From Bacteroidota bacterium (GTDB taxonomy: Bacteria > Bacteroidota > Bacteroidia > NS11-12g > UBA955): DNA of 64,000 nucleotides. Below the pieces are notes generated by a model, which had not been told where the DNA came from, searched no databases, and worked only from the letters and a program-made list of their open reading frames with translations. A program made the translations under genes and the position numbers. Positions 20,767 to 39,530 of the stretch are shown one piece after another; positions within the stretch are counted from its first letter, which is position 1; each line of letters begins with the position of its first letter. The stretch is from the NCBI GenBank assembly GCA_030833525.1, contig JAURGZ010000001.1:29977-93976 (forward strand), given 5' to 3'.

Positions 20767-23388
20767 ATGGAATTATCGGCGAAATACAGTCCCAATGAAA
20801 TAGAAGGCAAGTGGTACAGCTATTGGCTGGAGCAGCGTTTGTTTGAATCAAAGCCCGATCATCGCAAACCCTACACCGTGGTGATACCCCCTCCCAATGT
20901 AACAGGGGTGTTGCACATGGGCCATATGTTGAACAACACCATTCAAGATGTATTGGTTCGACGTGCGCGCATGAAGGGCTTCAATGCTTGTTGGGTGCCG
21001 GGAACCGATCATGCCAGCATTGCAACAGAAGCCAAAGTTGTCAAGTTGTTGGCTTCGCAAGGCATTCAAAAGAAAGACCTCAGCCGTGAAGACTTTCTGA
21101 AACACGCCTGGGATTGGAAAGAGAAATACGGGGGCATCATTCTGGAACAGTTGAAAAAGTTGGGATCCAGCTGCGATTGGTCCCGCACACGCTTTACCAT
21201 GGAGCCCAGTCTGTATCAAGCGGTGGTTGATGTTTTCGTTGATCTGTACCAAAAAGGGTTGATTTACCGCGGTACCAAAATGGTGAATTGGGATCCTGAG
21301 GGTTTGACCACATTAAGCGACGAAGAGGTTATTTTCAGAGAGCAGTACGACCAATTGTATTACGTCAAATACGAAGGTGTTGACTTTGATGGGTCGTTAC
21401 AGGTTGCCACTGCTCGCCCCGAAACCATAGCGGGCGACGTGGCAGTTTGCGTGCATCCCGAAGATGAACGCTACCAAAACTGGATCGGCAAAAAAGTACG
21501 GGTACCCCTGATCAATAGGGAAGTGGCTATCATAGCCGATGACTACATCGATCGCGAATTTGGAACCGGTGTTCTGAAAGTCACTCCGGCCCACGATATT
21601 CACGATTACGAAATCGGCCAGAAATTCCAATTGCCCATCATCGATACCTTGACCGAAGATGGACGAATCTCTGAGGCGGGTGCACGTTGCATAGGAATGG
21701 ATCGATTCGAAGCCCGAAAGGTTTGGGTCGAGGACCTGAAGGCAGCAGGGCTGTTGGAAAAGACCGAAGATTACACCCACAACGTGGGATTCTCCGAGCG
21801 CACCGATGCCGTCGTAGAGCCTCGAATTTCAACCCAGTGGTTCCTGGACATGAAGAAATTCATGGAAAAGAACCCCGAGGTGCTCAGTTCGGTGATGAGC
21901 GATGAGGTTCGATTCTTTCCTGAAAAATTGAAAAATACCTACCGCCATTGGATGGAGAATGTACGCGATTGGAACATTTCTCGTCAGTTGTGGTGGGGCC
22001 ATCGCATTCCGGCCTGGTATAGTCCTGATGGGGAATTCGTGGTAGCGGCCACCGCTGAACAAGCTCAAGCTGAGTTTGCAAACAAAGGCAAGTCCATTCA
22101 TGTCCATGATTTGGTTCAAGACCCCGATGTACTCGATACTTGGTTCAGCAGCTGGCTGTGGCCCATATCGGTATTCGATGGAATAGGAGCCAACGCTGAC
22201 CGCAGCGAGCTCGATTATTATTACCCCACCCAGGATTTGGTCACCGGGCCCGATATATTGTTCTTTTGGGTGGCTCGCATGATCATGGCCGGCTATGAGT
22301 TTGAAGGGAAGAAGCCTTTTGAAAACGTGTATTTCACAGGTCTGATTCGCGATAAACAACGCCGCAAAATGTCCAAGAGTCTGGGCAACAGTCCCGATGC
22401 CTTGGAATTGATTGAACGCTTTGGCGCCGATGCCGTTCGAATGGGATTGCTTCTTTGTGCACCCGCTGGAAATGACATTTTGTTTGACGAGAGCCAGATT
22501 GAGCAGGGCCGAAATTTCTGCAATAAAATTTGGAACGCGTATCGCTTGGTTGAGATGTGGGAGCCAGTTGAAGTGGCTCAACGACCTTACGAGAAAGAAG
22601 CGGGTGACTGGTTTGAGAAACGCTTGAATTCAGCCCTTGCAGAGAACGAGCATCACTTTGGTCAATTCCGCTTAAGCGATGCCTTGATGAATCTCTATAA
22701 ATTGGTATGGGATGACTTCTGCTCCGTATACTTAGAGGCCATTAAACCGGCTTATGGGGAGCGAATTTCTGAAACCGCATGGAATCAAGCGAGAGCCTAT
22801 TTCGCAACCTTGGTTCGAGCTTTGCATCCCTTCATGCCCTTCATTACCGAAGAGTTGCACCATGCCCTGCACGAGCAGAAACCCAGTGCAGCGTGTGCTG
22901 TGAGTGATTATCCGGTGGTGGAAGTACAGGTTCAAAACGACGCATTGGATCCCATGGCTATGGTGAGTGAAGTGCGAAATTTGCGGGCACAAAAGGGGAT
23001 TTCACCCAAAGAAGCCCTGGAGATTTGCATATTCGGGGATCCCGACCTCTTAAAAGGATACGGCCATATGGTCTCCAAGATGGCCAACTGCACGGCAGTT
23101 TGGAACCCCAGTGATCGCCCCACGGGCGCAGCCTCATTCTTGGTGGGAACCTTAGAGGTTCTGGTCGCCTTAGGTCAATCTTTGGATGTAGAAGGAGAGA
23201 AGGAACGCATTCTGCAGGAAATGAATCGCTTGAAAGGCTTCTTGAAAGGAGTAGAATCCAAGCTCAACAACGAAAAGTTTGTTGCCAATGCCCAAGCTGA
23301 TGTGGTGGAACGTGAGCGTCAAAAACAAAGCGATACCCTCACCAAGTTGAAAAACCTAGAAGGTCAATTGGCCGCCTTGGGTTCCTAG
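20767..23388 (+). CDS. valS: Valyl-tRNA synthetase
   Basis: PPPNVTGVLHMGHMLNNTIQD, GTDHASIATEAKV, RRKMSKSLGNSPD. Start set to ATG 20767. Confidence 0.97.
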   Translation: MELSAKYSPNEIEGKWYSYWLEQRLFESKPDHRKPYTVVIPPPNVTGVLHMGHMLNNTIQDVLVRRARMKGFNACWVPGTDHASIATEAKVVKLLASQGIQKKDLSREDFLKHAWDWKEKYGGIILEQLKKLGSSCDWSRTRFTMEPSLYQAVVDVFVDLYQKGLIYRGTKMVNWDPEGLTTLSDEEVIFREQYDQLYYVKYEGVDFDGSLQVATARPETIAGDVAVCVHPEDERYQNWIGKKVRVPLINREVAIIADDYIDREFGTGVLKVTPAHDIHDYEIGQKFQLPIIDTLTEDGRISEAGARCIGMDRFEARKVWVEDLKAAGLLEKTEDYTHNVGFSERTDAVVEPRISTQWFLDMKKFMEKNPEVLSSVMSDEVRFFPEKLKNTYRHWMENVRDWNISRQLWWGHRIPAWYSPDGEFVVAATAEQAQAEFANKGKSIHVHDLVQDPDVLDTWFSSWLWPISVFDGIGANADRSELDYYYPTQDLVTGPDILFFWVARMIMAGYEFEGKKPFENVYFTGLIRDKQRRKMSKSLGNSPDALELIERFGADAVRMGLLLCAPAGNDILFDESQIEQGRNFCNKIWNAYRLVEMWEPVEVAQRPYEKEAGDWFEKRLNSALAENEHHFGQFRLSDALMNLYKLVWDDFCSVYLEAIKPAYGERISETAWNQARAYFATLVRALHPFMPFITEELHHALHEQKPSAACAVSDYPVVEVQVQNDALDPMAMVSEVRNLRAQKGISPKEALEICIFGDPDLLKGYGHMVSKMANCTAVWNPSDRPTGAASFLVGTLEVLVALGQSLDVEGEKERILQEMNRLKGFLKGVESKLNNEKFVANAQADVVERERQKQSDTLTKLKNLEGQLAALGS

Positions 23389-37168: not shown

Positions 37169-38407
37169 ATGGAGAATAGCAGCTCAACCTACATAGAATT
37201 GGAAAATCAATACGGTGCTCACAACTACCACCCTTTGCCCGTTGTGTTGCAACAGGGCTTAGGCATTTGGTTGACCGATGTTGAAGGCAAGCGCTATCTC
37301 GATTTTTTATCTGCCTATTCAGCTGTGAATCAGGGCCATTGTCATCCCGCTATATTGGGGGCTTTGACTGAGCAGGCTCAGAAACTGACCCTCACCAGTC
37401 GGGCCTTTCACAACGATCAATTGGGTCCCTATGAGTCTTTCATGTGCAAAGTCTTCGGATTTGATCGTCTATTGCCAATGAACACCGGTGTGGAAGGAGG
37501 GGAGACCGCTGTGAAGTTGGCTCGCAAATGGGCCTATCAAGTCAAGGGGGTGCCCGAGAATCAAGCTCGAATTCTATTTGCAGAACACAATTTCTGGGGC
37601 CGCACCTTGGCGGCCGTGAGCAGTTCCAGCGATCCCGATAGTTTTGGAAATTTCGGGCCCTTTATGCCCGGGTTTTCGTTGATTCCTTACAACGATTTAT
37701 CGGCTTTGGAGGCTGAGTTGAAAGATCCGAACGTGGCGGCATTCATGGTTGAGCCCATTCAGGGAGAGGCAGGGGTTGTCGTTCCCGATGAGGGTTATTT
37801 GAAAGGAGTGAGGGCCCTATGCAGTCAATATAATGTCTTGTTCATTGCCGACGAGGTGCAAACGGGTCTTGGTCGCACCGGTAAAATGCTGGCTTGCGAT
37901 CACGAAGGGGTTAAACCCGATGTGCTGATTTTGGGTAAAGCCTTGAGCGGCGGTGTTTTACCCGTTTCAGCGGTCCTGGCTTCAAGCGAAGTGATGAATA
38001 CCCTGCAACCCGGCCAGCACGGTTCAACTTTTGGGGGCAACCCTTTGGCATGCGCAGTGGCCAAAAAGGCCATTGAGGTACTGTTGGATGAAAAAATGAT
38101 TGAAAATGCCGAACAGCGCGGTCAGCAATTCAGGCAAGGTTTGGCTCAAATGAATTCCAATTTGATTCGTGTGATTCGAGGCAAAGGATTGTTGAATGCT
38201 GTTGAAATTGTGCCCTTTGGTGACAACCGCACCGCGTATGACGTGTGCAAAGCCTTGATGAAGAATGGCTTACTCGCCAAACAGACGCACCAACACATCA
38301 TTCGTTTTGCGCCTCCCTTGGTCATTGATTCTGCTCAAATTGAACAAGCTCTCGCGATTATTGAACAAACGCTAATCGAGGTCCAAAAACCCGGTTACTT
38401 TGATTAA
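37169..38407 (+). CDS. rocD: Ornithine--oxo-acid transaminase
   Basis: [78 protein letters not shown]. Confidence 0.95.
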
Positions 38408-38419
38408 TTTCGCACCCTT

Positions 38420-38508
38420 GCTCGGGTGGCGGAACAGGTAGACGCGCAGGACTTAAAATCCTGTTGCCAGCAGTGGCAGTACGGGTTCGAAACCCGTCCC
38501 GAGTACCA
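38420..38508 (+). tRNA. tRNA-Leu (anticodon UAA), CCA encoded
   Basis: Acceptor GCTCGGG/CCCGAGT, anticodon arm CAGGA-CTTAAAA-TCCTG, long variable arm TGCCA/TGGCA, T arm ACGGG-TTCGAAA-CCCGT, discriminator A then CCA. Confidence 0.97.
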
Positions 38509-39530
38509 TGAAAAGATGGATAACCCTGGCCTGGGGTTTGTCTTTCCTCTGGGCTTGTCAGTCTTCGAAAGGACCCGACATTCGGATCCTGTCGGAGACT
38601 GATAGTACCTTGAGCCCTGAAATTCGCGCTCTTTGCAAAAAAATTGCCGACGATCCTACCGTCGCCGAATACTATTACCTGCGGGGCAATACCTTCTATT
38701 ACGAAGAAAATTACCGGGAAGCTTTGATCGATTTGCAGGCCAGTGTGAGCCTCAATCCAGAGCAACCCCTGTATCATTTTCGATTGGCCGAAACCTACCT
38801 GCAGAGCGATTCGGCCCAGTATCCGCAGGCTGCATTTCATTTGTCAGAAGCTTTGCGTTTGAAACCTGATTACGCTGAAGCCCAATACCAGCAAGCTCGA
38901 TTGTGGGTAGCGCGCCAAGAATACGATAAGGCCGCCGCTCCCATCAAAAACTTGAAAAACAACCCCGATTTTCGAGACAGAGCCTTTTTGTTAGAGGCAT
39001 TGTCTTTCCGCGAGCAAAAAGATACAGCCAAGTCAGAGGCAGTATTGGATGCACTGCTGCGTTTAAGTCCTCAGAATTACGATGCCAACATGCAAAAGGC
39101 CTTGATTCTGTTGAACCGACACGATCCCTTGTGCATGGAATGGCTCGACAAGTCGCTTTCTTTAGATGAATTGAGCGATGAAGCCCTGTATCACAAAGGA
39201 CTTTGGAATCAATGGAACGGTCAGTACGCCGACGCCATGGTTTTGTATGAAAATGCCAATCGCATCAATCCGGGTCATTTGTATGCGCGCTACAACCGCG
39301 CTGTCATTGAAAGTTTGTTCGAGAACTACCTCAAAAGCGAAGAGCATTGCAACCAGGTATTGGATATGGATGCCAATTTCTCGTTGGCTTTGGCTCTAAG
39401 AGGCTATTGCCGCGAAAAATTGGGCTATAAAAAAGCCGCTCAGTCTGATTACCAAGCGGCTTTGAAATTGGATCCATCGCTTTCCATTGCCCAAGAAGGC
39501 TTGGAAAATCTAGGAGAATCACTTCGTTAA
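38508..39530 (+). CDS. TPR-repeat lipoprotein
   Basis: MKRWITLAWGLSFLWAC lipoprotein signal; TPR repeats; ATG begins on the last base of the tRNA CCA. Confidence 0.88.
   Translation: MKRWITLAWGLSFLWACQSSKGPDIRILSETDSTLSPEIRALCKKIADDPTVAEYYYLRGNTFYYEENYREALIDLQASVSLNPEQPLYHFRLAETYLQSDSAQYPQAAFHLSEALRLKPDYAEAQYQQARLWVARQEYDKAAAPIKNLKNNPDFRDRAFLLEALSFREQKDTAKSEAVLDALLRLSPQNYDANMQKALILLNRHDPLCMEWLDKSLSLDELSDEALYHKGLWNQWNGQYADAMVLYENANRINPGHLYARYNRAVIESLFENYLKSEEHCNQVLDMDANFSLALALRGYCREKLGYKKAAQSDYQAALKLDPSLSIAQEGLENLGESLR

Follow-up and report, generated by a model that had tools for sequence, protein, structure and literature searches.

A tRNA-Leu(UAA) gene abutting a lipoprotein start codon in a Bacteroidota clade: a probable case of tRNA-punctuated leaderless mRNA in bacteria

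The window, i.e. the whole 64,000-nucleotide stretch of DNA analysed here (contig C81 of genome G000, which is 1.93 Mb and 94%-complete), contains a tRNA-Leu(UAA) gene that runs directly into a gene for a TPR lipoprotein. The encoded CCA of the tRNA ends at 38508, and the same A is the first base of the lipoprotein ATG; this overlap, reported in a preliminary description of the DNA, was borne out to the exact coordinate by direct reading, by ARAGORN and by the open reading frame. The features of the locus, in window positions, are the following.

37169-38407, + strand: rocD, ornithine--oxo-acid transaminase, the upstream neighbour (TIGR01885, 636 bits)
38405-38412, + strand: predicted -7 promoter element of the tRNA, TAATTTCG, matching 5/6 of TAnnTTTG; its promoter activity is presumed from the consensus match
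38420-38508, + strand: tRNA-Leu(UAA) including CCA (ARAGORN)
38420-38505, + strand: body of the tRNA, positions 1-73, with the discriminator A at 38505 (ARAGORN; RF00005, 57.0 bits)
38498-38510, + strand: the junction by direct reading, with CCCGAGT at 38498-38504, A73 at 38505, CCA at 38506-38508 and ATG at 38508-38510
38506-38508, + strand: encoded CCA, whose last A doubles as the first base of the start codon
between 38505 and 38506 or between 38506 and 38507, + strand: predicted 3' cut site, proposed from the CCA-less relatives and the encoded RNase Z and CCA-adding enzyme
38508-39530, + strand: TPR lipoprotein gene, 340 aa (Pfam TPR_2, 1.7e-16; orthologs in 65 of the 70 family genomes searched, at E<=1e-25)
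38508-38558, + strand: signal peptide with lipobox, MKRWITLAWGLSFLWA followed by the lipidated Cys at codon 17 (from the translation; equivalents at the same ATG in relatives)

The acceptor stem of the tRNA is complete, with a G1-U72 pair in the host genus and G-C in the other abutting genera, and of the 30 RF00005 matches in the 94%-complete host genome no other is a UAA-Leu tRNA. Only 12 nt separate the end of rocD from the start of the tRNA, and the TAATTTCG element overlaps the rocD stop codon and lies 7 nt before the tRNA. The lipoprotein has the expected architecture of a signal peptide with a lipobox Cys followed by TPRs, and it matched generic TPR models only, with no NCBIfam equivalog at cut-off. 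A sigma-70 scan of the locus was uninformative, as its consensus is not the Bacteroidota one. A terminator-like stem with a U-rich tail is present at 38522-38538, just within the lipoprotein reading frame, and is probably due to chance; its interpretation as an attenuator is unsupported, as 1.5 kb, with both strands counted, contains five such sites and relatives differ in sequence there.

The assignment of the start codon to the ATG at 38508 is supported by the translated sequences, as the signal peptide with its lipobox begins there and the relatives agree, with related signal peptides opening at the same ATG in 33 loci. The spacer between tRNA and ATG in these loci is 2, 3 or 4 nt long, so that the tRNA occurs in each of the three possible registers with respect to the reading frame; coding therefore cannot extend into the tRNA, and an upstream start within it is ruled out. 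A downstream start was also rejected, most loci having no other ATG in the signal peptide.

These 33 loci are all those with an assembled junction in four genera (g1, g4, g5 and g6), and in every one of them the ATG lies 2-4 nt after the discriminator A73, that is, the putative mRNA start directly follows a tRNA 3' end as in mitochondrial-type tRNA punctuation. The spacers are CAA in 14 loci, CC in 10, CAAA and CCAA in two each, and CTAA, CCAC, CTAC, CG and CA in one each. The CCA/ATG overlap requires the CC form, and in the remaining 23 loci a CCA is either not encoded at this place or does not touch the ATG. Conservation of the one-nucleotide overlap, which the preliminary description had proposed to check, is thus confined to 10 of 33 loci, and it is the abutment that has been conserved instead. 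Within the abutting clade, the minimum number of changes is at least 8 for spacer sequence, at least 5 for spacer length and at least 4 for overlap state. Judged across these loci, the overlap is incidental, one spacer state among several, and the abutment is the conserved feature. In all loci but one (32 of the 33), the gene upstream of the tRNA is rocD; in the remaining one, L069, the contig breaks off 23 nt ahead of the tRNA. The related records are uncultured Bacteroidia/Flavobacteriales MAGs, several of which carry lake or pond names.

A protein tree from a quick search groups the abutting loci in one clade (SH-aLRT 99), and on this topology the abutting arrangement has a single origin. 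In the related lineages g8 and g9, the same tRNA is found 66-129 nt upstream of the lipoprotein gene, in several cases with a terminator-like hairpin between them, and in more distant genera no tRNA is located upstream of it. A single origin would also fit one neutral loss of the spacer, in which a deletion brought the ATG to the tRNA and left leaky expression without functional meaning. Such neutral compaction is very unlikely, however, as the spacer has been held at 2-4 nt over protein evolution amounting to approximately 8.5 amino-acid substitutions per site, with the tRNA and the ATG intact in every assessable locus. On the same comparison, the abutment is not due to chance.

For the non-abutting members of the family, 28 of 31 have a -7 element matching 5-6 of the 6 consensus positions 2-8 nt before the ATG (14 perfect, 14 at 5/6), and 9 of the 14 perfect elements sit exactly 4 nt before it; these scores are consensus matches, the best-scoring of several candidate ATGs being taken in the non-abutting loci. 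TAnnTTTG is the Bacteroidota -7 consensus, and transcription in Flavobacterium johnsoniae starts 4-5 nt after the -7 element (PMC6847099), so that in the non-abutting orthologs the start would fall on the AUG and a leaderless mRNA is predicted. In the abutting loci, the interval 2-8 nt ahead of the ATG contains nothing better than a 1-2/6 match to the -7 consensus in 33 of 33, and a putative tRNA promoter element with a 5-6/6 match is present 7-17 nt before the tRNA in all of them (28 at 6/6, 5 at 5/6). By these scores, which cover the -7 type alone, no separate mRNA promoter is found. The lipoprotein gene appears to have swapped its leaderless promoter for the tRNA promoter and the tRNA 3' end, and on this pattern its mRNA most likely derives from the tRNA transcript. 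A promoter inside the tRNA gene that gives an independent leaderless mRNA, which the preliminary description had offered in the form of a transcript starting in the tRNA 3' end, would be a simple way out of the conflict over the shared A, and leaderless-type promoters are common in this genome; with such poor -7 matches in all 33 loci and a tRNA sequence constrained by its own function, it is barely credible. Separated relatives with a promoter of their own, which had been named as evidence against a tie between the two genes, do exist but lie outside the clade, and since their promoters also predict leaderless mRNAs, they strengthen the leaderless reading.

The wider use of such promoters was examined in the host genome. 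In 456 kb of it, TAHHTTTG-N(k)-ATG occurs 23 times at k=4 and 11 times at k=5, and the remaining values of k between 0 and 15 give 0-9 occurrences each; genome-wide in G000, there are 109 sites of the N4 form, compared with 8 of the reversed pattern and 6 of N12. Within the window, the reading frames starting at 20767, 40762 and 47991 (+ strand) have TAHHTTTG 4-6 nt before the ATG. Leaderless-type promoters also precede genes which, from their N-termini, we take to resemble valS, guaA, hisS, fabD and dcd. This promoter spacing suggests a Bacteroidota lineage with many predicted leaderless mRNAs. The enrichment varies across the class; the highest of the 40 class genomes tested was G125 (class-level), where TAHHTTTG-N4-ATG has 317 sites and its reversed control 47, and this genome may be very rich in leaderless mRNAs. 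In published Bacteroidota transcriptomes, most mRNAs have a leader, with 87% over 10 nt in F. johnsoniae (PMC6847099) and only about 3.7% of the 5' UTRs shorter than 10 nt in B. thetaiotaomicron (PMC7366714). For the lipoprotein itself, the ATG is kept in 33 of 33 loci after 2-4 variable nt, with no required upstream leader signal, and an AUG within a few nt of the 5' end is predicted from the promoter spacing of the orthologs and, in the abutting clade, from the presumed cut position.

With regard to maturation of the tRNA 3' end, processing of the E. coli or Thermotoga type retains an encoded CCA, and here it would destroy the AUG. If the CCA were kept by a cut or trimming at A76, each transcript would yield either tRNA or translatable mRNA, and this competition would couple the lipoprotein to tRNA supply, which corresponds to the view of the preliminary description that a transcript could give one product but not both. 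The presence of an encoded CCA at this locus and the overlap in 10 loci are consistent with retention, as is the inhibition of B. subtilis-type RNase Z by CC right after the discriminator (PMC7479834). Retention is nevertheless unlikely: the overlap was gained or lost at least four times in the clade while the abutment stayed, the CCA-less relatives (CAA-ATG, CAAA-ATG) have no such conflict, and enzymatic CCA completion must be routine because most tRNA matches of the host genome (19 of 30) lack an encoded CCA. Mutual exclusion, which requires maturation to the transcribed A76, is probably wrong, given that CCA is encoded in only 11 of the 30 host matches (6 of 30 in G007), that a CCA-adding enzyme (PF01743) and a full-length RNase Z are encoded in the host genome (the latter with an HLHGDH motif and a score of 289.7 bits, slightly short of the curated 292.95 cut-off), and that many abutting relatives are CCA-less. 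As for the suggested tie between lipoprotein synthesis and tRNA-Leu, the physical linkage holds, nothing resembling a promoter for the lipoprotein mRNA being seen at the tRNA 3' end, and the exclusion of one product by the other is not supported.

The first C after the discriminator (C74) is encoded in 60 of 60 tRNA matches in the two genomes (L001-L030 of G000 and L188-L217 of G007), which perhaps reflects a cut after C74. In Propionibacterium acnes, tRNA cleavage between C74 and C75 was described and repair by nucleotidyltransferase suggested (PMC3848588). The tRNA at this locus differs from a CCA-less RNase Z substrate, which has no CC after the discriminator; CC is found in this position here and in 12 other loci (as CC, CCAA or CCAC), and the other 20 of the 33 are without it. 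The CC-ATG form of the host genus may thus be a poor RNase Z substrate at A73, needing a cut between the two Cs or another nuclease. With a cut after either A73 or C74, the AUG would stay on the mRNA and the CCA would be rebuilt, so that both products are obtained.

It is therefore proposed, with a probability of roughly 0.7, that one transcript and one cut at the tRNA 3' end produce both tRNA-Leu and a leaderless mRNA, a bacterial form of 'tRNA punctuation'. The proposal joins the observed anatomy, conservation, promoter loss, single origin and encoded enzymes to a mechanism in which we infer co-transcription, the position of the cut and translation of the cut product. The tRNA promoter would drive a single transcript of tRNA-Leu(UAA) and the lipoprotein reading frame, RNase P would take off the 5' leader, RNase Z (or another 3' endonuclease in that role) would make a single cut just after A73 or C74, and the CCA-adding enzyme would supply the missing CCA or CA to give tRNA-Leu. 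Downstream of the cut, an mRNA with a 5'-monophosphate would remain, beginning 1-4 nt ahead of the AUG (at this locus with 5'-pCCAUG or pCAUG); the ribosome would translate it as a leaderless mRNA, a mode apparently widespread in the lineage. Alternatively, ribosomes may translate the transcript uncut, its folded tRNA forming a structured leader, and the tRNA may be made from other copies of the transcript; in the predicted structure the tRNA folds independently and the AUG is unpaired, but the lipoprotein gene is of leaderless type elsewhere in the family and with a stable fold ending 2-4 nt ahead of the AUG, 30S initiation would lack a single-stranded landing site, which makes this alternative quite improbable. 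Under tRNA punctuation, the abutting clade would have arisen by loss of the terminator and the leaderless promoter still lying between the two genes in sister genera, with tRNA processing replacing transcription initiation as the maker of the leaderless 5' end. It may be suggested, tentatively, that tRNA 3' maturation also acts as an on-switch, the AUG becoming usable only once tRNA-Leu is cut off, so that lipoprotein output would track the rate of tRNA-Leu maturation (RNase Z capacity) at one mRNA per tRNA.

The closest case to this arrangement is the mitochondrial one, the tRNA punctuation of transcripts credited to Ojala, Montoya and Attardi 1981 as cited in PMC10941002, in which, as outlined in that citing source, RNase P and a 3' endonuclease define the ends of adjacent mRNAs by excising the tRNAs, and the start codon is at or near the 5' end. 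Unlike in mitochondria, a free-living bacterium with a bacterial RNase Z is involved here, with one tRNA-mRNA pair among ordinary promoters, and sister genera still have a separate leaderless-type promoter. Promoter-derived leaderless mRNAs of mycobacteria (PMC4633059) and S. pneumoniae (PMC6212727) likewise have the AUG at or next to the 5' end and no Shine-Dalgarno leader, whereas the 5' end here would stem from tRNA processing and bear a monophosphate. The Thermococcus kodakarensis gene TK0306 also has a tRNA in the 5' part of its mRNA transcript, but this tRNA-Lys lies within a 159-nt 5' UTR (PMC4247193), compared with only 2-4 nt from tRNA to start codon here. A nucleotidyltransferase-repairable cut inside CCA as in P. 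acnes would spare the AUG at this locus, although P. acnes has no obvious RNase Z and an mRNA product was not described there (PMC3848588). No bacterial precedent for tRNA-punctuated leaderless mRNAs was found in the literature searched, which consisted of open-licence papers. Other matches to the tRNA-Leu/ATG pattern in the genome contigs were mostly short frames, many of them tandem tRNAs misread as reading frames. A possible independent abutment occurs in Bacteroidales bacterium STF1_254 (L165:5559-6225), where tRNA-Leu(UAA) is followed by CTCTT and the ATG of a reading frame that is presumably MarC-like, as named from its N-terminus; it was absent beside the 20 best MarC relatives checked.

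If the proposed mechanism is true, tRNA punctuation would not be confined to organelles, and the abutting clade would offer a conserved natural example from bacteria of a leaderless 5' end made by tRNA processing in place of a promoter, and sister genera would still display what is likely the ancestral state. The locus would then provide a system for asking how RNase Z handles an encoded CCA, whether leaderless mRNAs with a 5'-monophosphate get translated, and by what means the supply of a tRNA can become coupled to the synthesis of envelope proteins.
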